Below, in pieces: positions 454 through 32,265 of a stretch of 40,050 nt of DNA. This DNA is from Psittacicella hinzii (GTDB lineage: Bacteria > Pseudomonadota > Gammaproteobacteria > Enterobacterales > Psittacicellaceae): contig NZ_NRJG01000039.1 of the NCBI RefSeq assembly GCF_003585935.1, positions 1-40,050 of the forward strand. The letters are read 5' to 3'. The stretch's first letter is position 1. Every line of letters starts with the position of its first letter. A program made the translations under genes and the position numbers. Under the pieces are notes generated by a model. That model searched no databases. It was not told the DNA's origin and worked only from the letters and a program-made list of their open reading frames with translations.

Positions 454-885
454 ATGTCATTATTCAAAAAAGCAACTTCAGTATTAGTAGCAGCAAGTTT
501 ATTCGTAAGTGCTTCAGCTTTTGCAATGGGTGAACACGATAAAAGCAACGACCCATACTACAACTTAAACGCACACCCAATCGTATTAAATGCTAGCGAT
601 GCATACAATACTCCAGCTAAATCAGTACAAGCTACTGAAGGTGAGTTTGCAGTATCAGCAGATTTATTCAAAGGTGTTAACAACAACTTAGTAGTAATTA
701 AAGCTGCACAAGATCCAGCACAAGTAGTAAATGTACACGTTGGTAACTTAACTGTAGTTACTCCAGCTAACCTATCTGCAGCACAAATTAACGATGTATT
801 AGCTAAATTAGAAGTTGATGCACAAGTTAAAGATATCGATGTAACTGTTGCAGCTGTAGAAGCACACAACGAATACAAAAAATAA
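454..885 (+). CDS. small exported protein, paralogue 1 of 3
   Basis: A 143-residue protein that I do not recognise. Residues 1-24 form a classical Sec signal peptide ending ASAFA, so the mature product of about 12 kDa should be periplasmic, outer-membrane-associated or secreted. It has no cysteine. The ATG at 454 is preceded by GGAGA at 442-446, a good ribosome binding site. Residues 70-122 share a pattern with the next two genes: hydrophobic-FK or hydrophobic-YQ, then a V/I run, then a VGNLTV-like segment, then an S-x3-I/V-N-x-V/L-L helix. Codons are strikingly uniform (gca, gta, tta), as expected of a highly expressed gene. It is a single-gene unit ending at the hairpin at 1084-1109. Export is well supported by the sequence; function is unknown. 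Confidence 0.88.
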   Translation: MSLFKKATSVLVAASLFVSASAFAMGEHDKSNDPYYNLNAHPIVLNASDAYNTPAKSVQATEGEFAVSADLFKGVNNNLVVIKAAQDPAQVVNVHVGNLTVVTPANLSAAQINDVLAKLEVDAQVKDIDVTVAAVEAHNEYKK

Positions 886-2662: not shown

Positions 2663-2723
2663 GCTTAAAAACCTTATAGTTTTCTTATTTGCATAACATC
2701 AAGTAATTTATCTTAATCGATTT

Positions 2724-2748
2724 ACTCCGAGTAAAACTCGGAGTTTTT
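2724..2748 (+). terminator. intrinsic terminator of the 2276-2662 gene
   Basis: A 9-bp perfect stem ACTCCGAGT (2724-2732) with ACTCGGAGT (2736-2744), an AAA loop and a run of five T. Confidence 0.85.
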
Positions 2749-2892
2749 CCTGAAAAAACGCAGTTCAAGCTCGCTGAAAGTGAGTTTTGCGAGGAAAAAA
2801 GCTAGTCGCGCATAAGATTTTGCGGTAAAGCCGCTCAAACTCGAGATTTTTACCTAAAAAATGTTGCTAAGACTAGAAGTTATCCCCTTTAA

Positions 2893-2901
2893 TGGTATAA
2901 G
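2893..2901 (+). promoter_or_regulatory. extended minus-10 promoter for candidate RNA
   Basis: TGGTATAAG fits the extended minus-10 pattern TGnTATAAT. No strong minus-35 box is seen. Transcription would begin near 2908. Confidence 0.4.
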
Positions 2902-2907
2902 ATTAAA

Positions 2908-3187
2908 AGAGTGCTGCAAATTAGTGAACTTAGTTTGTATCACTACCCAGAATTTGCGTAAACGAGCTGTCACAGTTGAACCTAGAGTTCGAACGGATAA
3001 GATGACAAGATCTTAGTTTACGAACCTCATTCGTCTTAGTAGTTAGGGAACTACTAGCGAATAACTTTCTTACTTTAAGGAAGTTCTTTTCATCGCATAT
3101 AAGTGAAGAGTGATTACTTATACGCAAAAAATCACATTGTTAATAAAATTAGAGTTAACCTGTTAGGCCACACTAACAGGTTTTTTT
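2908..3187 (+). ncRNA. candidate structured non-coding RNA, about 280 nt
   Basis: The region lies between two plus-strand terminators and has no gene, yet folds almost end to end. Stem 1: GCAAAT-TAGTGA (2916-2927) with TCACTA (2940-2945) and ATTTGC (2952-2957), with a six-base CCCAGA bulge. Stem 2: CGTAAAC (2957-2963) with GTTTACG (3016-3022), enclosing TGTCA/TGACA (2968-2972, 3003-3007) and GTTGAAC/GTTCGAAC (2975-2981, 2987-2994). Stem 3: 3037-3044 with 3049-3056, loop AGGG. Stem 4: nine pairs, 3063-3071 with 3077-3085. Stem 5: 3095-3104 with 3116-3125, one mismatch. Stem 6 is the terminator. Hallmarks of tmRNA, RNase P, 4.5S and 6S RNA are absent. The fold is seen in sequence; that it is transcribed is inference. 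Confidence 0.5.
3157..3187 (+). terminator. intrinsic terminator, plus strand
   Basis: A 10-bp perfect stem AACCTGTTAG (3157-3166) with CTAACAGGTT (3173-3182), loop GCCACA, and T-run 3181-3187. It ends the candidate RNA and faces the minus-strand terminator beside it. Confidence 0.88.
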
Positions 3188-3193
3188 GTGCGC

Positions 3194-3227
3194 AAAAAAA
3201 AAGTACCAAACGGCGAGTTTGGTACTT
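3194..3227 (-). terminator. intrinsic terminator of the NSS transporter gene
   Basis: A 10-bp perfect stem AAGTACCAAA (3201-3210) with TTTGGTACTT (3218-3227). The A-run at 3194-3202 is a T-run on the minus strand. It lies 78 bp past the transporter stop. Confidence 0.88.
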
Positions 3228-3304
3228 ATATCCATAAGACTTCTTGTCATAGATTTGTCGATCTAATGACCATTTTAGTATAACACTAAAATCTAGCTTA
3301 ATGC

Positions 3305-4636
3305 TTAGTAGAATAGGCCATAGATAAATACAATGAAAATAATAATCGGTAATACGTATTTAACGTAGTTAAACCAAATATTTACCGTGGTTGGACTTGC
3401 GCAGTAAGATAATTCTTTTTTCGCTTCGTCTTTTAAGCAATAGCCGGTAAAAATACATGTAGCTAGAGCTGTAAGTACGAACAGAATATTACCTGACACA
3501 AAGTCGAACCAATTAAAGATTGTACTATTAAATGCCGATGGGATATTACCAAGAATGAAAATTCCTAATAATACTACAGCAATCGAAGCTTGACGATTAA
3601 GTTTAGTTTTCTCGGCTAGGGCAGTAATTAATACTTCATATAAAGTGATCGAAGTAGTTAGAGCCGCTAGTAATAATAACGAGAAGAAGATAACCGCAAA
3701 CACAGGACCTAACCACATGTGACTAAACACAATAGGTAGAGTTTGGAATACTAAAGATGGTCCTGAGTTTGGTGCTAAACCAAAACTGAAAAGACCTGGG
3801 AAGATCATAAAGCCAGCCATTACTGCAATTACGGTATTCACAATGGCAGTAATAATTGAAGTTTTAACTAAGTCTTCTTGTTTAGAGAGATAAGATGAAA
3901 GCGTAATCAGCACCCCAAAACCTAAACTTAAAGCAAAGAATACTTGTCCGAGAACGAAGATAAACAGACGAGGAGTAATCTTACTAAAATCCGGTTGGAG
4001 GTAGAATTTGATCCCTTCACTTGCTCCTTCTAAGGTTAGATTACGGATCACCATAATCAGTAAGAAGACAAAGAGCACTGGCATTAAGAACTTAACTGAA
4101 CGTTCGATTCCGTCAATAATCCCTTTAGAAAGGATAAACCAGTTAACTGCAACGAAGATAAAAGTCCAGAAAGAAATATTGAGTGGAGAATTGGTAATAG
4201 CTTTTTCATAATGAGCCGTTGTGGTTGCGGCATCCATGGCTTTGGCTGTTAAGTCGAGATTACCTACGACAATGTCGTAAATATATCTTAATACCCAACC
4301 ACCGATTACCATGTAGTAAGCGATAATCCCAAAACAGCCGAGTAAACCAGAGTAAGCGACTATTTTCCACCACTTGGAAATAGGCTTACCATTAGCCGAA
4401 CCACCAAAGGCGTCGATCGAGTTCATTTGACGACGACGTCCAATGACATTTTCCACTAAGATCATCGGAATCCCGATAACAATCATACAGATGCAGAAAA
4501 GCAATACATATGCTCCCCCACCATTTTGTCCTACTAAATAAGGGAAACGCCATGTTGCTCCAAAACCAATAGTAGCTCCAGCAACCGTTAAAATATAAGT
4601 AACGCGACTGGACCAGGTTTGTCTTTCAGCAGTCAT
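3305..4636 (-). CDS. sodium-dependent transporter, NSS/SNF family
   Basis: A 443-residue inner-membrane protein with about 11-12 hydrophobic segments, the usual size for the bacterial YhdH-type branch of the neurotransmitter:sodium symporters. Segment 1 has the family signature ending W-R-F-P-Y followed by V-G-Q-N-G-G-G-A-Y. Family members import an amino acid or similar solute with Na+; the substrate here cannot be read. Compared with LeuT, the two asparagines of the G-N-A-x-G-L-G-N motif (one a Na1 ligand) align with Ala (G-A-T-I-G-F-G-A). As far as I recall this is typical of one large bacterial subgroup. AAGGAG at 4642-4647 is a strong ribosome binding site for the ATG at 4636. It is transcribed alone, with a hairpin-rich leader. 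Adjacent alanine dehydrogenase makes an amino acid substrate attractive but unproven. Confidence 0.92.
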   Translation of the reverse strand: MTAERQTWSSRVTYILTVAGATIGFGATWRFPYLVGQNGGGAYVLLFCICMIVIGIPMILVENVIGRRRQMNSIDAFGGSANGKPISKWWKIVAYSGLLGCFGIIAYYMVIGGWVLRYIYDIVVGNLDLTAKAMDAATTTAHYEKAITNSPLNISFWTFIFVAVNWFILSKGIIDGIERSVKFLMPVLFVFLLIMVIRNLTLEGASEGIKFYLQPDFSKITPRLFIFVLGQVFFALSLGFGVLITLSSYLSKQEDLVKTSIITAIVNTVIAVMAGFMIFPGLFSFGLAPNSGPSLVFQTLPIVFSHMWLGPVFAVIFFSLLLLAALTTSITLYEVLITALAEKTKLNRQASIAVVLLGIFILGNIPSAFNSTIFNWFDFVSGNILFVLTALATCIFTGYCLKDEAKKELSYCASPTTVNIWFNYVKYVLPIIIFIVFIYGLFY

Positions 4637-9689: not shown

Positions 9690-12600
9690 ATGAGTAAAAA
9701 TAAAACCCCACCTCAAGGTTTTCCTTTGCTTTCTTTTGCTCAAGGCTTAAAACTTTCACGTTTATATCGGCAGTTTTCCTATCAAACGCATAAGCGCGCT
9801 GGTTTACAACGTACCGTGCGTGACTTTGCGGGTGCTTTGGATCTAGCGGTTGCGGATTTTGCAACGCCAGCTGAAACAACTAAATGGCAAGTAGCACAAG
9901 GCTTACTTGCTTTTAATTATTTTAGTGAGCACGAATTTGCGACTAGTTATCTAACACCACTTGAAGAATTAAATGCTTATAGTGGTTATACCTTTATAGA
10001 AGTTGAAGACCTATACGAAGGAGCACTAACTGACCAAGAACAAGCTGAAATTATTGTGCAAGATCACTATCAAAAAATCCAAGTTGCAGTTAGCGGACGT
10101 ATGAACCGTCAGCTCGATAGTGAACTTGAACTACAAGCGCACTATAATTTAGGCTGTCAAGCTCTCTATGGTGAACTTAAGCCTTTAGAACTTTTTCATG
10201 ATTTAAGCTCAGAACAGCGTGAAGAATGCTTAGAAACAGGTTTTGCCTTAGAAAAGGATTGCTTACTAGAGCAAGTACAACCTTTTATGCGTAAGCAACA
10301 TGGTAAAACCGCCCAATCTGTAAGTCAGACGCAGTTTTATCCGTATTTTATTCAAGGCATGAACAATATTGCCCAACAAGGAGCATTATTGTCTTGGCCT
10401 TTTTACCAAAAACGTTACCAAAATATTAAACAAGCCATTTCGAGTAAATTACAAGCGGCGCAAAGTCGTGCCTTTACTAAAGCCCAAATCTACTCTAATG
10501 GTGAGCTCTATCAACAAGTAAGAGATGCTTATTTAGCTAATGCAAGTAAGTTAGATAATGAGCAACTCGATAAGAGTTTACTAGATAGTAGCAAGCATAG
10601 TAGCAAGCTCGATAATAGTAAGCTTGAGTCTAATCTAAATAACAAGCTTGAGAGTTATAAGTTCGATAAGAGCAGTTTAAGAAGTCAGCGTAATAAACAG
10701 CCAACCTTAACGCTGGCACAACGTGCTGCTATTCAGCAAGAGTATGTAGCGCAAGAGCGAGCTTTAGCCTCTACTCGTCATGAGCAGAATTTACGTCCGA
10801 CGGTTGCAACTTATACTCAAGAGCGCGAGCAAGATCTTGCAACCCAATCTAAGAAAGCAAAAACTACTTGGCAAGCGCTGCACCAGTTTACTGACATAGC
10901 TTATGAAGATCTTGCCCCTCAATATCAAGACATTGATCTGTATGCTGCTCAAGTGCAAGTAAGTTTTACTAATCATCAGGCATTACGTAACTTTATTATG
11001 GCGTATGCGCAACATACTCCTTATCGTAATCTGAACTTTATTGATGTAAGTAAACTTACGTGTTTAGATGGTGTCTTTGCCTACTTACCTTATACCTTTG
11101 ACATTAGTGCTTGGGATGTAAGTCAAGTAACTAGCATGAAAGGGACTTTTGCGTTTTCATGGTTTAATGGGGAGTTAAATACTTGGGACGTAAGTAAAGT
11201 AACAGATATGTCATATCTGTTCTATGCCGGTTTATTTAACCAACCTTTAAATAACTGGCAAGTAGCACAAGTAGAATCTTTAGCTTATACTTTTGCCTAT
11301 AGCTTATTTAACCAGCCTTTAGATACTTGGCAAGTAACACAAGTAAAAGATTTACGTAGTACTTTTGCTAGTGCTTACTTCAATCATAGTGTCGATCATT
11401 GGTGTTTACCACATATCGAGCATTATGATTGTGATACGTTCCGTACCTCAGACGAGTGTAGTATCTATCCATCAGAAATCTGGGATAAGTTAAGTCAATA
11501 TCAGCAACAATTAGCGCAAGGTGTTAGTTTAGGGTCCTTAAAACCAACGCCAATTACCGCTAAGCCTGATTTTATGACCTTAGCCGATGAACAAGCGCGT
11601 CAAGCTGCTCTTGCTAAGTATATGGCGAAGTTACCGCTCAACCCACGTTACGATCAGAAAACCTTTGGCGAACTCTATCAAAAAGATCTGAGTCAAACTG
11701 GCATTAGTCTTAAGTTTACCGACTATTTGTCTTTAGGTATGTTTGTCCGGGATTATTGTAAAACTTTACAAAACTGGCAAGCAGACTTAAACTTTATTGA
11801 TGTTTCTGAACTTAATAACTTAAGTTATGTCTTTACTCGTACGCCATTTAATGGAGATATCTCCCAATGGCAAACCGGTAAAGTTAAGCAAGCACAAATG
11901 CTGTTTTTTGGTAGTAGCTTTAACGGTGATATTAGTCAGTGGGATGTCCGTCAATTAACTAACCTCAAAGCCGCTTTCGCTAAAAGTCGCTTTACCAGAG
12001 ATCTAAGCTCTTGGCAAACTTCGAGCCTAGAAAACTTAGATTATGCCTTTGCCTTTACTAACTTTAATGGTGATGTAAGTGCTTGGGACGTAAGCCGCGT
12101 TAATTCGGCAATCTCAACTTTTATGGGGTCAACCTTTAACCAAGATTTAAGTGCTTGGGTAACTAGTTCTTTAGAGCAAGCAGAAAAAATGTTTGCTTAT
12201 AGTAACTTTAACCAATACTTAGGTACTTGGGATACTACTAAACTGGTAAATGCGAATTTAATGTTTGCCTTTAGTGCTTATAACCAGAACTTAAGTAACT
12301 GGCGCTTACCTAAGCTCGAACGAGCTATGGGAATGTTTGCCATGAGTGAGTTTAACCAAGACTTAAGTGCTTGGCGCTTACCGGCATTAGTGAATGCTAA
12401 TTACTTCTTAGCCTTTACTCCTAACTTTAAGCAAGACCTTAATGGCATCTGGTTACCTAAACTGCAAATGGCACATCATTGGTTAATAGGTACGTCTTAT
12501 AATTACAACCTAACTTGGTTTGTAAACTTATTACCAGCCATGGTTAGTCAGTATCCTAGTGAACTCTATAGTACCCAAGAGTATACTTCTTTACCTGTAG

Positions 12601-13379
12601 GTACAGAACTAGTTGATGTGCAGTTTAGTCAGTTAAGTAAAGAATTAGTGCAAGCCCTAATCGCTACTTATAAACTAAGCGCAGAAGCTAAAAGTAAGGC
12701 ACATAAACTAAGCGCAGAACCTAATGGGAATGAACTTGTTGCTGTAGGTGGTAAACTGCGTTTTAGCAATGCTTGGAGTTTACGTCGTTTCTTAGAAGCG
12801 CTTTTAGCTTTAGAACCGCGCATGGATCTAAGTTTTATCTCCATTGAGGGATTAGCAAACTTAAGTTATATCTTTGCTAAGATCCCACATGTAGCTGTTA
12901 AACTCTCTAACTGGGATTTAAGCCGTGTGCAAGATCTTACGGGAGCTTTTTTAGATGTGCAGTCTCTAACCGGTGTTAGTCATTGGCAATTCCCGCAATT
13001 ACGTTTTGCTTCTGGAGCTTTTTACAATTGTAAAGTGCAAGATGATCCATCTAATTGGCACTTCCCGCCATTAGAAAATTATGTAGGGATGTTTATGCAC
13101 ACTAATTTACATAAAGAGCAAGTAAAACAATTTAATATTGCGGCTGATTGGCAAAACTACTATGCCCTCAATGATGTTGATGAAACTCTTTTAGCAGCAG
13201 AGTTAGATGTAAGATATAGAGCAGGAATCCGTTTACTTTCTCGTCGTAGCCACGACACTTTAAATCTGGTAAACGAAAATCCAAGTTCCGAAGAAATTCG
13301 TGAATTACATCAATATTTTAAAACGCAAGTTGCAGAAGAAATGCAAAGTCAACGTTATATGTGGGTAGAGCAAGAGTAA
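9690..13379 (+). CDS. large DUF285/BspA-like repeat protein
   Basis: A 1229-residue protein. Residues 1-285 match nothing I know. Residues 290-345 are a Ser/Lys/Leu/Asp/Asn-rich low-complexity linker. The rest carries degenerate repeats of about 24 residues of the type F-N-x-D-L-S-x-W-D-V-S-x-V-T-x-M-x-x-x-F-A, the DUF285 (BspA-like, leucine-rich-repeat-related) family, often found on bacterial surfaces and in adhesion. The repeats fall into three blocks (about 449-585, 702-920, 1040-1135). Each opens with a similar cap: [KR]-F-[ST]-type start, a helix, then L-[NS]-F-I-[DS]-[VI] (from about 424, 674 and 1023). There is no signal peptide, lipobox or anchor, so surface location is not supported. 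No Shine-Dalgarno is evident before the ATG. Confidence 0.85.
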   Translation: MSKNKTPPQGFPLLSFAQGLKLSRLYRQFSYQTHKRAGLQRTVRDFAGALDLAVADFATPAETTKWQVAQGLLAFNYFSEHEFATSYLTPLEELNAYSGYTFIEVEDLYEGALTDQEQAEIIVQDHYQKIQVAVSGRMNRQLDSELELQAHYNLGCQALYGELKPLELFHDLSSEQREECLETGFALEKDCLLEQVQPFMRKQHGKTAQSVSQTQFYPYFIQGMNNIAQQGALLSWPFYQKRYQNIKQAISSKLQAAQSRAFTKAQIYSNGELYQQVRDAYLANASKLDNEQLDKSLLDSSKHSSKLDNSKLESNLNNKLESYKFDKSSLRSQRNKQPTLTLAQRAAIQQEYVAQERALASTRHEQNLRPTVATYTQEREQDLATQSKKAKTTWQALHQFTDIAYEDLAPQYQDIDLYAAQVQVSFTNHQALRNFIMAYAQHTPYRNLNFIDVSKLTCLDGVFAYLPYTFDISAWDVSQVTSMKGTFAFSWFNGELNTWDVSKVTDMSYLFYAGLFNQPLNNWQVAQVESLAYTFAYSLFNQPLDTWQVTQVKDLRSTFASAYFNHSVDHWCLPHIEHYDCDTFRTSDECSIYPSEIWDKLSQYQQQLAQGVSLGSLKPTPITAKPDFMTLADEQARQAALAKYMAKLPLNPRYDQKTFGELYQKDLSQTGISLKFTDYLSLGMFVRDYCKTLQNWQADLNFIDVSELNNLSYVFTRTPFNGDISQWQTGKVKQAQMLFFGSSFNGDISQWDVRQLTNLKAAFAKSRFTRDLSSWQTSSLENLDYAFAFTNFNGDVSAWDVSRVNSAISTFMGSTFNQDLSAWVTSSLEQAEKMFAYSNFNQYLGTWDTTKLVNANLMFAFSAYNQNLSNWRLPKLERAMGMFAMSEFNQDLSAWRLPALVNANYFLAFTPNFKQDLNGIWLPKLQMAHHWLIGTSYNYNLTWFVNLLPAMVSQYPSELYSTQEYTSLPVGTELVDVQFSQLSKELVQALIATYKLSAEAKSKAHKLSAEPNGNELVAVGGKLRFSNAWSLRRFLEALLALEPRMDLSFISIEGLANLSYIFAKIPHVAVKLSNWDLSRVQDLTGAFLDVQSLTGVSHWQFPQLRFASGAFYNCKVQDDPSNWHFPPLENYVGMFMHTNLHKEQVKQFNIAADWQNYYALNDVDETLLAAELDVRYRAGIRLLSRRSHDTLNLVNENPSSEEIRELHQYFKTQVAEEMQSQRYMWVEQE

Positions 13380-14594: not shown

Positions 14595-15260
14595 ATGCAA
14601 AGCTTATATTCTTTTTTCCGACATGTAGGGAGACTTACTTGTCGTTGGGGTGGACTTTTAACTCTTGCGAGTAGTCTATGCTTAGCAGCACCAGCTAAAG
14701 CAGGCATCTTCTTTAATACCGTAGTACAAGATACAGTCAATCCCCAAAAAACGCATTCAGGCTTAGTAAACTTGCATATGATTATGCAGAGTTATTACTC
14801 TAAAGTTTACAATGCCCTTTATAACAATCCTATTAAGTCTACCGATGACTTTATTCGGATTTTTACTTATGACATTAAAATCCAATCTTATCTGGCTGTA
14901 ATTCGTACTGCTGCAGGTAAGAATATCCAGATCGATCCTAAACAAGTGCTCTCGATCTACTTAAGCGAACAAGCTCAATGGTGTCATGAGCACATTAAAA
15001 ATCCTTTACAGTTTCAATGCTATACAGCAGAAGCTTTACTTGAAGCCTTTAAACAAATGCCTCCGCAAGTACTCGAAGCCTTAAATTTAGGAGCTTTTGA
15101 TCCTGAATACTATCAAAAACTCTACTCGGACATTACTCTACGTACGCAAATTGATAATATCTTTGCCATGATCCGCGGTAATAAGTTTGATACTGCTTTA
15201 AAGAGATACTTTAACTCTGGAGTTATTACTTACAGTAGTCGTTTTAGTATTACCTTATAG
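14595..15260 (+). CDS. exported protein with conserved Cys pair, cluster member 1
   Basis: A 221-residue protein of no family I recognise. A signal peptide with a long basic start ends A-K-A-G, and the mature chain begins I-F-F-N-T. Signature elements shared with the next three genes are L-H-x-x-M-Q (about residue 56), then Y-L-S-E-x3-W-C, a second Cys 12 residues later, a following M-P-P helix, and Y-F-N-S-G-V near the end. The paired cysteines could form a disulfide in the periplasm or outside the cell. AAAGG touches the ATG directly at 14590-14594, an odd spacing that may mean weak initiation. It probably heads the cluster, downstream of the CRP site. Confidence 0.8.
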   Translation: MQSLYSFFRHVGRLTCRWGGLLTLASSLCLAAPAKAGIFFNTVVQDTVNPQKTHSGLVNLHMIMQSYYSKVYNALYNNPIKSTDDFIRIFTYDIKIQSYLAVIRTAAGKNIQIDPKQVLSIYLSEQAQWCHEHIKNPLQFQCYTAEALLEAFKQMPPQVLEALNLGAFDPEYYQKLYSDITLRTQIDNIFAMIRGNKFDTALKRYFNSGVITYSSRFSITL

Positions 15261-15536
15261 TGGGTGATAGTTAGTGGTTGTTAGAGATCTTTAGAGATCT
15301 TTAGTGATAGTTATCTAGTTCCATATCTATCAGTAATATAGCTACTTAGTTACCTAGTAATCTAACAACTTAGTTACCGAAACAATACAAAGTCATCAAT
15401 ACAAAGTTATATGAATAGCTAAAGTAACATGACTAAAATAAGACTTACGTAAGTAATGCGCTGAGGTATTTTAAAGTATTGTGTAAGACTTTTGCTTTCT
15501 CGACAAACAGAACTTTACCTGTTTTTTAGGTGATGT
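15261..15536. other. intergenic within exported-protein cluster
   Basis: A direct repeat AGAGATCTTT occurs twice at about 15283-15302, followed by TAGTTACCTAGT-type repeats to 15400. AGGTGA at 15528-15533 precedes the next ATG. No terminator seen, so read-through from the first gene is possible. Confidence 0.4.
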
Positions 15537-16682
15537 ATGAGAATATTTATCTCTCAACTCTTAACCTTAATACTTCTTGGATCTTCTCTAGTGAGAAATC
15601 AAGGACAGCATCTTAAGGCTTGGTTAGTTGCAGTTTTAAGTATGGGCTTGCTTAGTCTAAATGGTAGTGCTTTAGCTGATGAGAAGCAACCTTCTCCAGC
15701 AGCACAGCCAGCATCCCAACCAACGCCAACTAAGCCACAAGAGACTAACGAGCGGGATCAAACTCCAAGCACTAGTCCTAGTCCTTCACTAGTGTTACCT
15801 TATTCAATGGTAAGTGTAACTCAAGACATTCCGAGTAATCCCCAAGCGTCAATAGTTTTACCGCGCAAAGGGACAAAGTATGTTTTAAGTTACAATGTTA
15901 AATATAGTTTAACCTTACCCGAACTTTCAGATTGCCACTTAGCTTTAGTTTTTCAAAAGCAACTGCCGATTGTTGCTACTCCTTATAAAGTTGTATATCC
16001 GGTAACTGAAGTTAATCACTTCTTCCGGATTAATCAAGATCCTTATCACCAACAGTATCCAACGGCCAATTTCTACGAGTCGAACTATAAATCCGATGTG
16101 TCAATTGAACGTTTGCATTTTTTAATGCAAACTTACTATAACAATCTCTATAGTTACCTCTATGGACAGACCGTAGATATCCCGACTTTTGTGCGTTTAC
16201 TTTTAAGTATGCCTAACTTTGGTTATTTTAAAGATGAGATTGCTCAAGTATGGGCAATCAGTTGGAGTAACTACTACGGCGCTACATCTACGCCTCCGGC
16301 TTATGATGTAAATAAATTATTCTTAACCTATATTAGTGAGCACTATTACTGGTGTCAACAAAACATTCGTGATGATGCTTTAGCTTTTGCTTGCTATTTC
16401 AATTATCAGTTTGCAGATTTAGTTTTTAACTTACCACAAAACGGTGCTCAACTAGTAAGCCAGTATGCTTATGCGCCAAGTGGTAAATCGGACTCGCAGG
16501 TCGAACATGAGTTAACCAAACTCCTACAACAAGCTCTAAAAAGTCCGGACAGTAATATCTTTATAGCTAAACTGGCAAGTATTTACCATGCCCAGTTTAA
16601 AGAGTTACAAGTTACTAAACCAGCAACTGAGCCTAAGAAATCAGCAGTCAAGCTAAGCTCGTTTTCTCGCGCTCCGGTATAA
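15537..16682 (+). CDS. exported protein with conserved Cys pair, cluster member 2 (long form)
   Basis: A 381-residue protein. The N-terminus has two hydrophobic stretches (about 1-17 and 27-45), the second ending A-L-A before an acidic residue, read as a long signal peptide. A Pro/Ser/Thr/Gln-rich linker follows (about 50-90), then a unique domain of about 90 residues containing one extra Cys. The shared core starts at L-H-F-L-M-Q (about 198) and continues with Y-I-S-E-x3-W-C and a second Cys 13 residues later, then an N-L-P segment. Compared with its neighbours it is the same core with an added N-terminal domain. The basic C-terminal tail is unshared. Function unknown. Confidence 0.82.
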   Translation: MRIFISQLLTLILLGSSLVRNQGQHLKAWLVAVLSMGLLSLNGSALADEKQPSPAAQPASQPTPTKPQETNERDQTPSTSPSPSLVLPYSMVSVTQDIPSNPQASIVLPRKGTKYVLSYNVKYSLTLPELSDCHLALVFQKQLPIVATPYKVVYPVTEVNHFFRINQDPYHQQYPTANFYESNYKSDVSIERLHFLMQTYYNNLYSYLYGQTVDIPTFVRLLLSMPNFGYFKDEIAQVWAISWSNYYGATSTPPAYDVNKLFLTYISEHYYWCQQNIRDDALAFACYFNYQFADLVFNLPQNGAQLVSQYAYAPSGKSDSQVEHELTKLLQQALKSPDSNIFIAKLASIYHAQFKELQVTKPATEPKKSAVKLSSFSRAPV

Positions 16683-16976
16683 GGCCAGCACGAGTAAATT
16701 AGAGTAAACTAGAGCTTATTACAGTAATCTAAAGTCAATTGCAGTAAACAAAAGTAAATTACAGTCAATTACATAGAACTGTAATAAGCTGTAATAAACT
16801 TCTTTAAACAGTAATAAACACATTAAAAACTACATTAAACCACACCTCACAAGGACGTTTTTAAACAGACTTTTAAACATATGTTTTTAAACGTACCTCA
16901 GGTGGTAATAGATAATATCGCCTAGCAGTAATGCTCAGGCGATAAGTTTAACGGCGAAAATTTATGGTTAAACTTT
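16683..16976. repeat. degenerate AT-rich repeats and a mini-frame before member 3
   Basis: 16690-16830 is built from variants of AGTAAATTACAGTCAATTACAG and its complement (TTACAG and CTGTAA occur many times). At 16964 an ATG with GGCGA upstream opens a 10-codon frame ending at TAG 16994-16996. It overlaps the start of the next gene in another frame, so translational coupling is possible. Confidence 0.45.
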
Positions 16977-17693
16977 ATGCCGCATGTATCTTTTAGTCGC
17001 TGGTTAAGTGTAGCATTCATAAGTGTCATTAGTGCTAGCTCTTATGCTGGCTACTTTTTCAACACTTCTTCTCCATGGGCAAGACCGGCTCTGATCAATA
17101 AGTTGGCTTTTGATGAACAAGATTCACGTAGTATGTACGTGTACTCTTTAGCCTTTAAGTCAGCTCCAGAATTAGAAGAGTTTCACACCTTAATGCAAAT
17201 GAACTTTGCGCGTTTACGTGATTTTCTTACTAATCAGCAGTACGAGATTGCCTACTTACCAGCTAAACTAACGCCTTTTAATGGCATGTCGTCTTTAGTG
17301 ACGCAATACTACAATACCACCGGACATAAACTCGAAGTGTTCAAAGAACAAAAAGTCGGCTTTATTACCTATTTAAATGAATTAGTTGATTGGTGTAAGA
17401 TTAATGGTTTTGCTGTAACTGATTACAGTTACAGTTGCTCCGTAGCTTATCGCTACCAAAAAATCCTTGAGTCTTTACCCGAATTTAAAGAGTATATAGA
17501 AGGCGATCCTTATTTCTTTGCCCGCGGACGTCCAGGTCCAGATTATCCTGCGCAATTAGTAGCTTTACGTCGTAAACTACGTAACTTTGATGATCCGACT
17601 AACAGTTTACTGCAATGGTACTTTAACTCTGGAGTAAGAGCTCCAGAACGCCGTGTTGTAACCTGTAGTTATCAATTAGGTACTAATTGTTAA
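16977..17693 (+). CDS. exported protein with conserved Cys pair, cluster member 3
   Basis: A 238-residue protein with a signal peptide ending A-S-S-Y-A-G, then Y-F-F-N-T, nearly the same mature N-terminus as member 1. Core elements: F-H-T-L-M-Q, Y-L-N-E-x3-W-C, a second Cys 14 residues on, S-L-P-E, and Y-F-N-S-G-V near the C-terminus. Two further cysteines lie in the last ten residues. The 10-codon frame at 16964-16996 overlaps its start. The next gene begins 12 bp after its stop, so the two form an operon. Function unknown. Confidence 0.82.
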   Translation: MPHVSFSRWLSVAFISVISASSYAGYFFNTSSPWARPALINKLAFDEQDSRSMYVYSLAFKSAPELEEFHTLMQMNFARLRDFLTNQQYEIAYLPAKLTPFNGMSSLVTQYYNTTGHKLEVFKEQKVGFITYLNELVDWCKINGFAVTDYSYSCSVAYRYQKILESLPEFKEYIEGDPYFFARGRPGPDYPAQLVALRRKLRNFDDPTNSLLQWYFNSGVRAPERRVVTCSYQLGTNC

Positions 17694-17705
17694 TCGAGAA
17701 TACTT

Positions 17706-18341
17706 ATGCAAAAACTATGGCGTCTAGTAGGACTAGTTGGTTTAGGGATAGTGAGCATTATGCCAAGCCAAGCAGGGACTTACTTTTTTACCCATAAATA
17801 TCTGCAAAATCCGCAATTAAGTGTCACCGACTATGATTACTATTATGGTTCGGTAGACTTATCGGCTTTGCATATAGATATGCAGCGCAGTATTACCCAA
17901 ATAGAAAAGCAATTAAATTACTACACTAACTTTACTAAGCGTGATTTAGTGCAGATTTTAGTGAGTTCTGTGCCAAGCTTTAGTCCTTATCTTAAAGCGA
18001 TACAGAACAATCAACTAACTTCTTATAAACCAATTGCAGCTAATCAAACTTACAGCCAATACTTAAATGAGTATGTGGATTTTTGTACCAACCAAAGTCC
18101 AATGCGCGTAAAAACCTATCGTTACAATTGTGCCATGTTAATTAAAGTGTTTACTCTTTTAGCGCAATTGCCAGATGATTTTATTCGCGAGCTCAATCAA
18201 GTAGCAATGAATCCCGATCTAGCACGTAAATTTAGTGCCAATGCAGATCGTTTCTTACGTGCTATTGGTAAGGTTGAAGATCCTGATAGTGAAGCTAATC
18301 GTATTTTAAAATTGTATTATGGGATTAGCATTACCCAGTAA
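17706..18341 (+). CDS. exported protein with conserved Cys pair, cluster member 4
   Basis: A 211-residue protein with a short, clear signal peptide ending S-Q-A-G, then T-Y-F-F-T. Core elements: L-H-I-D-M-Q, Y-L-N-E-x3-F-C, a second Cys 15 residues on, and Q-L-P-D-D. The C-terminal Y-Y-G replaces Y-F-N-S-G-V. It follows member 3 by 12 bp with a weak GAGA ribosome binding site and is the last gene before the hairpin at 18391-18423. Only the two core cysteines remain in the mature protein, which makes it the minimal form of the family. Function unknown. Confidence 0.82.
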   Translation: MQKLWRLVGLVGLGIVSIMPSQAGTYFFTHKYLQNPQLSVTDYDYYYGSVDLSALHIDMQRSITQIEKQLNYYTNFTKRDLVQILVSSVPSFSPYLKAIQNNQLTSYKPIAANQTYSQYLNEYVDFCTNQSPMRVKTYRYNCAMLIKVFTLLAQLPDDFIRELNQVAMNPDLARKFSANADRFLRAIGKVEDPDSEANRILKLYYGISITQ

Positions 18342-28409: not shown

Positions 28410-28637
28410 TTGTACCCTACAACTAGGGACTCCCAAAAATTGATATAACTCTTATAAAGATAGCATAAAAATCAAGCAAATATCAAGCTTTTATGGCATA
28501 ATGCCTGTTATTAAACTGATAACAGTATATAAGTCTCCAAAAGCAATCATTTGTTAGTATTTTTATGAGCAGAAATTACACGTTACCCAATTCAAAAAAA
28601 GTTCAATTAGTAGATGCAAATAATAAAAACTTTAAAG
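28410..28637. other. short intergenic before the insertion element
   Basis: AT-rich with no gene seen. The segment 28632-28639 (TTAAAGCC) can pair with GGCTTTAA at 28667-28674 across the left IS end. Confidence 0.4.
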
Positions 28638-30343
28638 CCTGAATTCCGCTGCGCAGCGCCCGACGTGGCTTTAATTTAATAAGGATTTTTCCTATAAAAT
28701 TAACTAAAAATCTAGCTCTAAATATCTAATTTTGATATGGTAAAGCAAACGCCCGATGTTTTTATAAAAATAAAAAATAATTAGAGAAGTATTTTATGAA
28801 AGAGCCTAGATATGTAGCAAGACCAGCAGACAGAGTAAAAAGAGGTGGAGGAGTTTACATATACTATGTACTTAAGCATAAAAGAGGTAAAAACGCCCAA
28901 GGTGAAAGTTACACAACTAGCGATACACCACACACCAGCATATTACATGGTAGCTAAAGTACTTGCTGCAAATGTAGGTCTTCTAAAAGCATTAGAAGAA
29001 GTATTTGACGAGAAAAGTATTAATACAATTCTAGCTTTATCAGCTTTTTACCACCAAGAAAAGAACGCTGTAAGACAGTTTGAACAATGGTGTAAAGAGC
29101 GTAACTATGAAACGAACTGCTTATCTAGTTCTCAGGATATTAGTAAATTCTTCAAGGAAATCTCAACGAAAGTTGAAGATTTTAAAGAAGTATGGTCAAA
29201 AAACAGATACTACGATGGGATGTCAGCAATCTTCGATATAACTTCTCATAGTTCATATGCAGAAACTTACAAAAATGAACTAGTTAAACGTGGATATAAT
29301 CGTGATCGCAATGATTTACCACAAATGAATTTTGCTTTAATTATTGATCCTGAAACCAAGATTCCAGTCAACTTTGACCTCTTCAATGGTAACTGTAACG
29401 ATATCTCTCATTTCTCTCGTAATACCATGAGACTTCTACCGAACGTTAAAGATCCTGATATCGAGTTGGTTTTTGATAATGGTTGCTGTTCTAAAAAAGC
29501 ATTACAAACGCTAAGTTATGAAAATGTTAAATTTACTACAGTGATTAGTGAAGAAAGCACTCTTTACAAAGAATTAGTAGAGAAAAGCTATGGAAACATT
29601 CTTTTTGATGGGAAATTAACTTACGATGAAGATGTTTTCTCAAAAAGATACGATACAGACTATCTTGGAGTACCTGTAAATGCCCACGTATATTTAGATT
29701 ACAAGCTACTACATGAAAAGAGAAAAGCTCTAAGAAATAAGACCGATGCTTTAAAAGAAGAAGCAATAAAGTATCTTGGTAATCCTAAGAAATTACTGTC
29801 TCGTTATGGATCTGTTCTTGAGATAAAACCTCATGGTGACACTGCTTTAACTGCTAGTGACATTTGTGTAGATGAAGATAAGTACCGTGAACTTCAAAAG
29901 AAATGTGACTTCTTCACAGTGATAACGAATACACCAAGAGATTCTTTATCTGTACTAAACATTTATAGAAGAAATTACGTCGAAACAATGATGCATATTA
30001 TTAAAAACGTTCTTGGATTTAAAACCTATAGAACTCACACTTCAGAAGCTTCTATCGGTAAATAACTTACAGCGTTTACTTCTTTAATTATTTACAATCA
30101 ATTTACTGATGCAGTTCGTAAAGATCATACTCTTGCTACTTATTCGATAGAAGATATGATCAAAGAGCTTAATAGCAACCATGTGCTTAAATTAAAAACG
30201 GTAACTTAGAAGTTTCTGTTATGTCAACTTTACAGAAAAAGCTACTTAAAGCAGTAGGCATCTCAGTAGATGACTTTACGGATGCGATTAAGAAAAATAT
30301 TTAAAAAAAGTCTGGCGTTTTATTTTAATTTGCGGAATTCGGG
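28638..30343 (+). mobile_element. decayed insertion sequence, IS1634/IS4-like
   Basis: About 1.7 kb bounded by terminal inverted repeats CCTGAATTCCGC (28638-28649) and GCGGAATTCGGG (30332-30343), matching at 11 of 12 bases. It contains one transposase gene broken in at least three places. No target-site duplication is apparent. It sits in the gap between the 27183 gene and the minus-strand pbgA-like gene, breaking neither. Confidence 0.75.
28796..30304 (+). pseudogene. transposase, DDE type, IS1634/IS4-like, disrupted
   Basis: The ATG at 28796 (GAGAAG upstream) begins a frame with the usual basic N-terminus of such transposases, but the body is in the next frame from about 28845. The longest open piece is 28845-30065 (406 codons, GTG start). 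DDE residues can be placed: Asp in F-D-I-T-S, Asp in L-V-F-D-N-G, and Glu in Y-V-E before the I-x-K helix. A TAA at 30063-30065 interrupts it. The same frame continues with homologous-looking sequence (L-T-A-F-T-S-L-I-I-Y) until a one-base deletion in an A-run near 30200, after which another frame carries the tail to TAA at 30304. Non-functional. Confidence 0.8.
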
Positions 30344-30513
30344 TTCTAAATTTTATCTTTACAAAATAAAGGTCTTAGAAAAATTTCTAAGACCTTTAGC
30401 GTTTAAAATTTGCAATAAATTGTATATGGTTTGCTAGTGTGTTTTGTGTTTTACTATGTATTCTGTTCTAATTTTATCTAAGATATTGCATGTACTAAAT
30501 TATTTAGGAATAA
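30344..30513. other. gap between IS and pbgA-like gene
   Basis: It holds the terminator at 30360-30397. There is no remnant of a periplasmic PbgA domain between the pbgA-like stop and this hairpin. Confidence 0.5.
30360..30397 (-). terminator. terminator of the recX/pbgA-like operon
   Basis: A 14-bp perfect inverted repeat AAAGGTCTTAGAAA (30368-30381) with its complement (30384-30397), followed on the minus strand by TTTATTTTGT. Confidence 0.75.
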
Positions 30514-31191
30514 TTAAGGCAAGTAATCTAACCCATTATCAGGAGTAAAGTAGAACATTAAAGGAAACACTGAACGATATTTTAAAATATCCACATTATC
30601 TGTATTCATGGCATAAATATATAAACTATTACTCCAGCAAATACAAATAAGCATTAAGAAAAAGAAAATATACGTAAACTTTGAACGAAAGTGTAAGTGG
30701 AGAATCCGTCGCCAAATATAAGCACTAAATAGTACTTCAAATAGCAAGATAAACGGAATAGCAATAAAATACACATTTACAAAGTCTACTTGATAACGTG
30801 CATGGGCTAGCAAGAGGTCAACAAGATTTATCCACCGTAAGTGTTCGTAAAAAATGTTATATACCGCTTGATCGAGCATGAGCAGGCTGATCAATAAAGT
30901 ATAGTAAGTGGCAACTACTAGTCGGTAATAGAAGTCATTTTTAATGATAAAAACTACGAGTATAGGGATCACTAAACTAATAAGTGAGAGTAGAAAAAAA
31001 TGACTAAAATTAGTGGCTAAAAAATAGCCCATACTAATAGCATTATGAATATGTAAGCCAGAAATATAGCGTAAGCCTAAAAGCCAGAAGATAACTAGAT
31101 TACATAAGACGAACCAATATGCCCATCTTAAGTTCATAATGCGGCGTTGGCTAGGAGTTAGATATTGAGTAGAATTTAAGAGAATATGCAT
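30514..31191 (-). CDS. PbgA/YejM-like membrane domain only (DUF3413)
   Basis: A 225-residue inner-membrane protein with five hydrophobic segments. It aligns with the N-terminal domain of E. coli PbgA (YejM/LapC): R-W-A-Y-W-F near W-G-H-W-F, L-D-Q-A-V-Y-N-I-F near I-D-S-E-V-F, F-I-A-I-P-F-I-L-L-F-E-V-L-F near F-I-S-V-P-V-I-L-L-L-E-L-V-F, and S-x-F-P-L near L-P-L-S-Y-P. E. coli PbgA has 586 residues with a large periplasmic hydrolase-like domain; this protein stops just after the membrane part. In E. coli the membrane domain is the essential portion and controls LpxC turnover through LapB/FtsH. GGAG overlaps the recX stop codon, 9 bp upstream, so the pair is co-translated. Confidence 0.8.
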   Translation of the reverse strand: MHILLNSTQYLTPSQRRIMNLRWAYWFVLCNLVIFWLLGLRYISGLHIHNAISMGYFLATNFSHFFLLSLISLVIPILVVFIIKNDFYYRLVVATYYTLLISLLMLDQAVYNIFYEHLRWINLVDLLLAHARYQVDFVNVYFIAIPFILLFEVLFSAYIWRRILHLHFRSKFTYIFFFLMLICICWSNSLYIYAMNTDNVDILKYRSVFPLMFYFTPDNGLDYLP

Positions 31192-31200
31192 TAACTTCTC

Positions 31201-31716
31201 CTATTCAGGCAAAGTAAAATCATGTTCAACAATAAACTCAAGAGGACTGATATTTAGTTCTTGCAGAGTTTTAAGAGTTTGACTAATGTATTGTAAGTGC
31301 GCAAACTCATAACCTTTAGAGAGCATGCCTCGAGTTACTTTGGCTTTCACTTTAGGATCTTTAAGATCTAAGTTGTGAAAGTCTTTAGCAATAAAGAGTG
31401 CAAAGGCTTGGTGCTGCCAATTAACTTGCGCTTGTTCAAGTGCTTGCTCAATGTCTTCGTTGCTAACACCTTTTTGGCGTAGTTTTTGACGAATATTCTG
31501 TGGACCAAAGCGCGAGAGCGCTTGGTCGTGCACAAAAACTTCGGCAAAGCGCTTATCGCTTTGATAGTTTTTGCTTTGGCAGATTTCTAAAGCTTGCTCA
31601 CTCTCTTGTGCTTCATAACCTTTTTCGCGCAGTTTTTGTAAGAGCTGATGAGCTGAACACTCTCGCTTAGAAAGCAAGTAAATTAAATAGTCATAAGCTG
31701 TTAAACGTTTAGCCAT
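31201..31716 (-). CDS. recX: regulatory protein RecX
   Basis: A 171-residue RecX, of usual size, an all-helical repeat protein that binds RecA filaments and limits recombinase activity. Recognisable segments are A-Y-D-Y-L-I-Y-L-L-S-K-R-E-x-S, L-x-x-K-G-Y, D-x-R-F-A-x3-V, R-F-G-P-x-x-I-R-Q-K-L-R-Q-K-G-V and L-S-K-G-Y-E near the C-terminus. CAGGAAA provides a ribosome binding site about 8 bases before the ATG. recA, its usual upstream neighbour, is absent; instead recX is followed by the pbgA-like gene. Confidence 0.92.
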   Translation of the reverse strand: MAKRLTAYDYLIYLLSKRECSAHQLLQKLREKGYEAQESEQALEICQSKNYQSDKRFAEVFVHDQALSRFGPQNIRQKLRQKGVSNEDIEQALEQAQVNWQHQAFALFIAKDFHNLDLKDPKVKAKVTRGMLSKGYEFAHLQYISQTLKTLQELNISPLEFIVEHDFTLPE

Positions 31717-31864
31717 ATTTAAATTTCCTGTAGTTAAGCATACAGCTTTAAGATTATGGTTAAGAAGTTTAAAGCTGTGCTTATATTATAAGTCTTCTCT
31801 AAGTTCGAGGTAAAACTATCATACAAGGATGTCCTACAATTGAGTTAGTCTGGTAGGAAGAACA

Positions 31865-31902
31865 AAAACATTTAAGGCTTCGAAGTATTACTTCGAAGCC
31901 TT
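31865..31902 (-). terminator. terminator, minus strand, downstream of hemC
   Basis: A 12-bp perfect stem AAGGCTTCGAAG (31874-31885) with CTTCGAAGCCTT (31891-31902), loop TATTA, then TTTTT four bases on along the minus strand. It lies 360 bp past the hemC stop. Confidence 0.65.
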
Positions 31903-32130
31903 GATAGTATAAGTTTAGGATAAGCGTATAGCTTAACTCGATTTAACTCAACCAGGCTCAACTTGACTTAGAGATGAGTTATAAACTCATTATTTACGAG
32001 ACAACCAACGATTTTAGAAAGTATCAGCTTCTCTAAAGAAGTGACTAGTCATGCTTTATCTGTAACTAGAGAAGAGCTTACAGCTAATTTTTAGTCAATG
32101 CTTATAGGTTATGTTTCTAAGCGATGTTTC

Positions 32131-32157
32131 TAAGCTATGTAAGCTATGTAAGCTATG
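32131..32157. repeat. 9-bp tandem repeat, 3 exact copies
   Basis: TAAGCTATG repeated three times without change, with looser copies on both sides. Confidence 0.8.
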
Positions 32158-32265
32158 TTTATAAGCTGCGTCTCTAGCTTACACTTTTGAGACTATATGG
32201 CATATTATTTTTTAGATTGTATGCCATACGACTTTTTAGACTAGGACGAGATTACTTGTGACAAG

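Follow-up and report, generated by a model that had tools for sequence, protein, structure and literature searches.

A PbgA/YejM-like protein without the periplasmic hydrolase-like domain is conserved behind recX in Psittacicella

The window analysed here, a whole stretch of 40,050 nucleotides from Psittacicella hinzii (NZ_NRJG01000039.1), carries on its minus strand a pbgA/yejM-like gene (30514-31191; ATG at 31191, stop codon ending at 30514) encoding a protein of 225 aa with the DUF3413 membrane domain only. The first-pass annotation had described a 225-residue product from this interval; the reading frame stands as described, and the gene lies on the minus strand. The recX gene (31201-31716, minus strand; RecX_HTH1/HTH2) is found directly upstream with a gap of 9 nt, probably forming a dicistron with pbgA, and the same order is present at loci L036, L038, L039 and L040, with hemC-recX-pbgA kept in all four Psittacicella genomes. 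The coupling to recX, previously called unusual, is real and genus-wide, and any functional role for it would be conjectural. The recX-pbgA unit is followed by a strong intrinsic-terminator-like hairpin (30367-30398, minus strand), having a 14-bp stem, a loop of 4 and a T-rich tail. Ahead of recX there is a promoter-like site, TTTACC-18-TATAAT (31785-31814, minus strand), which is a consensus match only, the number of such sites in the region being not above that in shuffles. The gap between hemC and recX (31717-32265) is 549 nt long and includes a terminator-like hairpin (31874-31902, minus strand) that would separate recX-pbgA from hemC here; in the congeners, both genes overlap or nearly touch.

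Downstream of pbgA, the window contains a decayed IS1634-family element (28622-30359, plus strand; NF033559 IS1634, E=5.5e-32), which is bounded by imperfect terminal inverted repeats of 28 nt (28622-28649 and 30332-30359) and has a transposase frame that is broken after 30065. This position differs in each species, being occupied by trpE in P. melopsittaci, a gene for a surface-repeat-like protein in G003 and one for a small exported protein in G002 (L040:268-669). Truncation of pbgA by the adjoining element was considered and rejected, because the congeners lack the element there and have the same pbgA end. Elsewhere in the window, 9690-13379 encodes a 1229-aa protein with six stretches of DUF285 repeats (E=3.2e-82), a family whose name comes from Mycoplasma, and a similar repeat protein is encoded downstream of pbgA in G003 (L038:1-654). 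Small exported proteins, resembling the one in G002, form paralogue-like clusters in the window (454-885, 1289-1852 and 2276-2662; 14595-18341).

The 225-aa protein matches PF11893 (DUF3413) with E=1e-27 and 97.4 bits (cut-off, 27.1 bits) over profile positions 10-207 of 248, and the congener proteins match the same profile with E values from 9e-21 to 9e-22. Its sole NCBIfam match is NF038282 (LapC_YejM_PbgA; E=3.2e-10, 38.9 bits), which covers the N-terminal part only and does not reach the curated cut-off of 825 bits set for full-length proteins. A search of the PDB matched solely YejM/PbgA chains from E. coli and Salmonella (best E=1.2e-10), aligning with residues 15-213 of the 586 of YejM. 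The protein ends nine residues past the position of E. coli T213, inside the linker. The D-X9-H pair described for the PbgA/YejM membrane domain (PMC7018646) is present as D107 and H117, aligned with the family and invariant in the four Psittacicella species, and the family-invariant residues W23, W26, F27, N31, R90, P146 and P210 are also retained. Kyte-Doolittle hydropathy, the sole basis of the helix count, gives five hydrophobic segments; an AlphaFold model built from two sequences was all-helical, with a pLDDT of 48 that is too poor for use. Assignment to another membrane family was rejected, since Pfam gives only DUF3413 and NCBIfam only NF038282. Likewise, identity as an EptA/CptA phosphoethanolamine transferase, which combines a membrane domain with a catalytic sulfatase-fold domain, does not agree with these matches.

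No remnant of the hydrolase domain was found downstream of pbgA in any of the six frames in the four species, using a profile of 12 periplasmic domains with filters off, for which a full-length protein as positive control scores 452 bits. A frameshift or a remnant 3' of the gene was consequently rejected, and the absence of any such remnant before the terminator, claimed earlier from the reading frames, is borne out. The same profile found no separate PbgA-type periplasmic domain in the four genomes, whose assemblies are about 87-92% complete (86.6% for the window genome). In the window genome, its sole significant match was an arylsulfatase (E=4.5e-12), and the other three gave no significant match; beyond the arylsulfatase, there were sub-threshold fragments only. 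Four sulfatase-fold ORFs occur in the window genome, three for EptA/CptA-like transferases and one for an exported arylsulfatase, and these were rejected as the separated PbgA domain. Three genes for EptA/CptA-like phosphoethanolamine transferases lie in a single genome, two of them in tandem (L056:490-2124 and 2675-4045) and one at L005:778-2439. A single DUF3413 protein was detected in this genome at its 86.6% completeness, and no full-length pbgA was found elsewhere in it. It is unlikely that assembly gaps hide the periplasmic domain in all four genomes. The first-pass annotation had read the gene as the membrane domain of PbgA/YejM without its periplasmic domain, had proposed a search for a separate sulfatase-fold domain, and had named a full-length copy elsewhere or membership of another family as contrary findings; the Pfam, NCBIfam and PDB matches, the genome-wide searches and the relatives all support its reading.

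The loss also includes the linker. In E. coli YejM, the linker 210-YPMTARRF-217 binds LPS, and a T213D/R215D/R216D mutant (YejM-3D) still inhibits LpxC degradation while its response to Kdo2-lipid A is lost (PMC9356133). In alignments, the window protein has in place of this linker a C-terminal tail, FYFTPDNGLDYLP (residues 213-225; 30517-30555, minus strand), and YPMTARRF is replaced by FYFTPDNG, with FYFRFPYWF, FYFRYPYWF and FYFQYSQWF in the other species. Both R215 and R216 of E. coli are lost in the four species, with D and N at those positions in the window protein. Among 36 full-length relatives, by comparison, 31 carry YPxTA[R/K]; variants of it stand in the remaining five, all of which come from outside the order.

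Each of the four Psittacicella genomes compared, including Psittacicella melopsittaci (L036), has one short DUF3413 gene behind recX, encoding 221-234 aa. Protein identity among the four species is 59-81% (59-61% when each of the three others is compared with the window protein), and the motif RSVFPLMFYF is invariant near the C-terminus, with the sequence ending 8-21 residues later. Within the genus, the dN of pbgA (0.15-0.35) is slightly lower than that of recX (0.17-0.47); dS was saturated or not computable, so no dN/dS ratio is given. From these sequences, the membrane domain appears to be under constraint in the genus. As all four genomes have conserved the gene, its short form is neither a local accident nor a product of chance or decay.

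The comparison with related genomes, also proposed at the outset, separates the genus from its order. All 46 DUF3413 matches in a first set of other genomes of the order are open frames of 507-695 aa, and in a larger sample of the order all but one of the matches listed (down to about 4e-88) have at least 574 aa, the exception being a frameshift-like frame of 366 aa (G235). A survey of 35 more genomes from the class gave mostly full-length DUF3413 matches and one true membrane-only copy (G564, L097). Other short frames in the class and order were rejected as parallels: G652 has lost an internal part but keeps a hydrolase remnant, the frame in G235 is frameshift-like, that in G321 is interrupted by stops, and in G598 the hydrolase part follows in the same frame. 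In the tree, the Psittacicella proteins form a single clade with a long stem (2.84 changes per column), and the point at which this clade joins the full-length proteins is not fixed exactly. By parsimony, the periplasmic domain was probably lost on this stem. Identity of the membrane domain to full-length relatives is 21-25%.

The genomes also encode the partners of PbgA in the control of LpxC, for which a search had been suggested (lapB, ftsH and lpxC). FtsH and LapB are present in the four genomes and LpxC in three, the window genome having all of them. LapA is followed by LapB, with YciH nearby, in all four; LapA was recognised by Pfam in two genomes (LapA_dom, E=2.6e-11) and through its resemblance in the remaining two. 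LapB of the genus (L052:2202-4640 in the window genome; L053:2091-3953; L054:1229-3181; L055:1165-3126) is 620-812 aa long, whereas LapB of the related families sampled has 386-398 aa. The enlargement corresponds to a long polar stretch between the N-terminal helix and the TPR part, varying strongly in length among the species, and the N-terminal helix is retained (FELLFLFIPLIAILSFLLG versus LELLFLLLPIAAAYGWYMG in relatives). LpxC in the genus has a longer, diverged stretch at its tail, with VYA, VAA or VHA as the last three residues and no clear degron of the E. coli type.

The Psittacicella protein shares with PbgA/YejM/LapC of E. coli and Salmonella (NF038282; PDB 5i5d, 6v8q, 5i5h and 6xlp) the DUF3413 domain, the D-X9-H pair and the partner genes LapA, LapB, FtsH and LpxC (the full set in three of the four genomes). 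It differs from the 586-aa YejM in having 225 aa, in lacking both YPMTARRF and the hydrolase-like domain, in its position behind recX and in its low identity to full-length relatives. It resembles the laboratory alleles LH530/yejM569, with a stop after residue 189, and yejM-deltaC, with a stop at 192, which also leave the membrane domain only and are viable. However, such laboratory truncations are mutants with outer-membrane defects, whereas the Psittacicella form is fixed in the genus, is about 30 residues longer and has an invariant motif near its end. A predicted loss of the linker's response to LPS would be shared with YejM-3D (PMC9356133), the residue aligned with R215 being D in the window protein; yet that mutant retains the whole protein, and for Psittacicella the unresponsiveness is a prediction from the alignment. 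The membrane-only copy in G564, another gammaproteobacterium, is similar in being a 245-aa DUF3413 protein with neither hydrolase domain nor linker motif (L097:3075-3812, minus strand). It is an extra, very diverged copy between glycosyltransferase-like and kinase-like genes, in a genome that also has a full-length one (L092). No report of a natural membrane-only PbgA of the Psittacicella form was found in the library searched, where the papers mentioning DUF3413 or Psittacicella appeared, from their titles and abstracts, to be unrelated to this point.

Here it is proposed, with somewhat more belief than doubt, that the product is a functional PbgA/YejM of which the Psittacicella lineage has kept only the membrane module, and that this module would act as an anti-adaptor whose hold on LapB is relieved by LPS through the linker little or not at all. 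In E. coli, the YejM membrane domain is sufficient for LapB binding and can stabilise LpxC (PMC7240159; PMC9356133). By homology, the Psittacicella module would bind the transmembrane helix of LapB, and LapB held in this way would not deliver LpxC to FtsH. Because the periplasmic domain and the LPS-contacting residues of the linker are both gone, the complex is expected to be released weakly or not at all by LPS, like that of the E. coli triple mutant. The feedback on LPS synthesis would therefore need another input, which may be LapB, with its greatly enlarged cytoplasmic part, or LpxC/FtsH directly. A further step, put forward only tentatively, is that PbgA would be an LPS-blind, constitutive anti-adaptor in a rewired LpxC circuit, with the sensing of demand moved away from it, possibly into the enlarged LapB; that the LapB extension took over sensing is a guess from their co-occurrence in the same genus. 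Given the strong divergence of the membrane domain, the LapB interface may also have changed, and the lack of a clear E. coli type degron in the LpxC tails makes control of LpxC by FtsH in the genus no more than putative. That the membrane domain is enough for LpxC control in E. coli, as stated earlier, is disputed, since LpxC stays normal with a yejM stop at residue 192 (PMC7240159), but LPS and LpxC are lowered and the outer membrane is weakened with other truncation alleles (PMC7157816; reviewed in PMC13333357). The idea that the regulatory part was retained needs refinement, since the LPS-contacting linker motif is lost together with the hydrolase domain; what remains would be the LapB-binding module and not that part in full.

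LPS could compete for the helix groove even without the linker, and sensing may have been retained on this basis if lipid A enters the groove that binds LapB and the linker's place is taken by the new aromatic tail (FYF, YWF) facing the periplasm; the periplasmic domain would then have been dispensable and simply lost. On the helices of YejM, the sites for LPS and LapB do overlap (PMC9356133), the four species share an unchanged RSVFPLMFYF, and a W-F pair continues in three of them; but the equivalents of R215 and R216 are lost throughout, with D and N in the window protein, and the charge-reversed linker mutant of E. coli is unresponsive (PMC9356133), so that this possibility is considered unlikely. 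Still less probable is that PbgA has left the LpxC circuit for another membrane role, its fast divergence reflecting a change of function: the very long stem branch and the remodelled LapB (620-812 vs 386-398 aa) would fit such a change, against which stand the retained circuit partners and the nine family-invariant residues that remain, from W23 to P210.

With assemblies that are about 87-92% complete, a split protein whose periplasmic domain is encoded separately might have been missed, but four independent assemblies returned, with the 12-sequence profile, only one arylsulfatase and sub-threshold fragments, which makes it very improbable. It is barely credible that the gene is the decaying remains of a rearrangement, brought about for example by the adjoining insertion element: a broken IS1634-type element does lie just downstream and the next gene differs in all four species, yet the length class, the end and 59-81% identity are shared by the four, the congeners lack the element there, pbgA has its own terminator-like hairpin, and broken copies elsewhere (L098, L099) keep recognisable hydrolase remnants. 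Since the circuit partners are conserved and constraint acts on the membrane domain, an anti-adaptor that lacks LPS sensing through the linker is the likeliest role.

The role of the YejM periplasmic domain, the sensing of LPS and how conserved the monitoring by YejM is have been stated as open questions (PMC13333357, PMC7773988). A membrane-only YejM that lacks the LPS-binding linker, fixed in a genus where LapA, LapB and FtsH are retained, suggests that selection can keep the membrane module by itself. The bird-associated genus Psittacicella would thus offer a natural variant for testing LPS sensing and the role of the missing parts of YejM, in a pathway where LpxC and its control are antibiotic targets.
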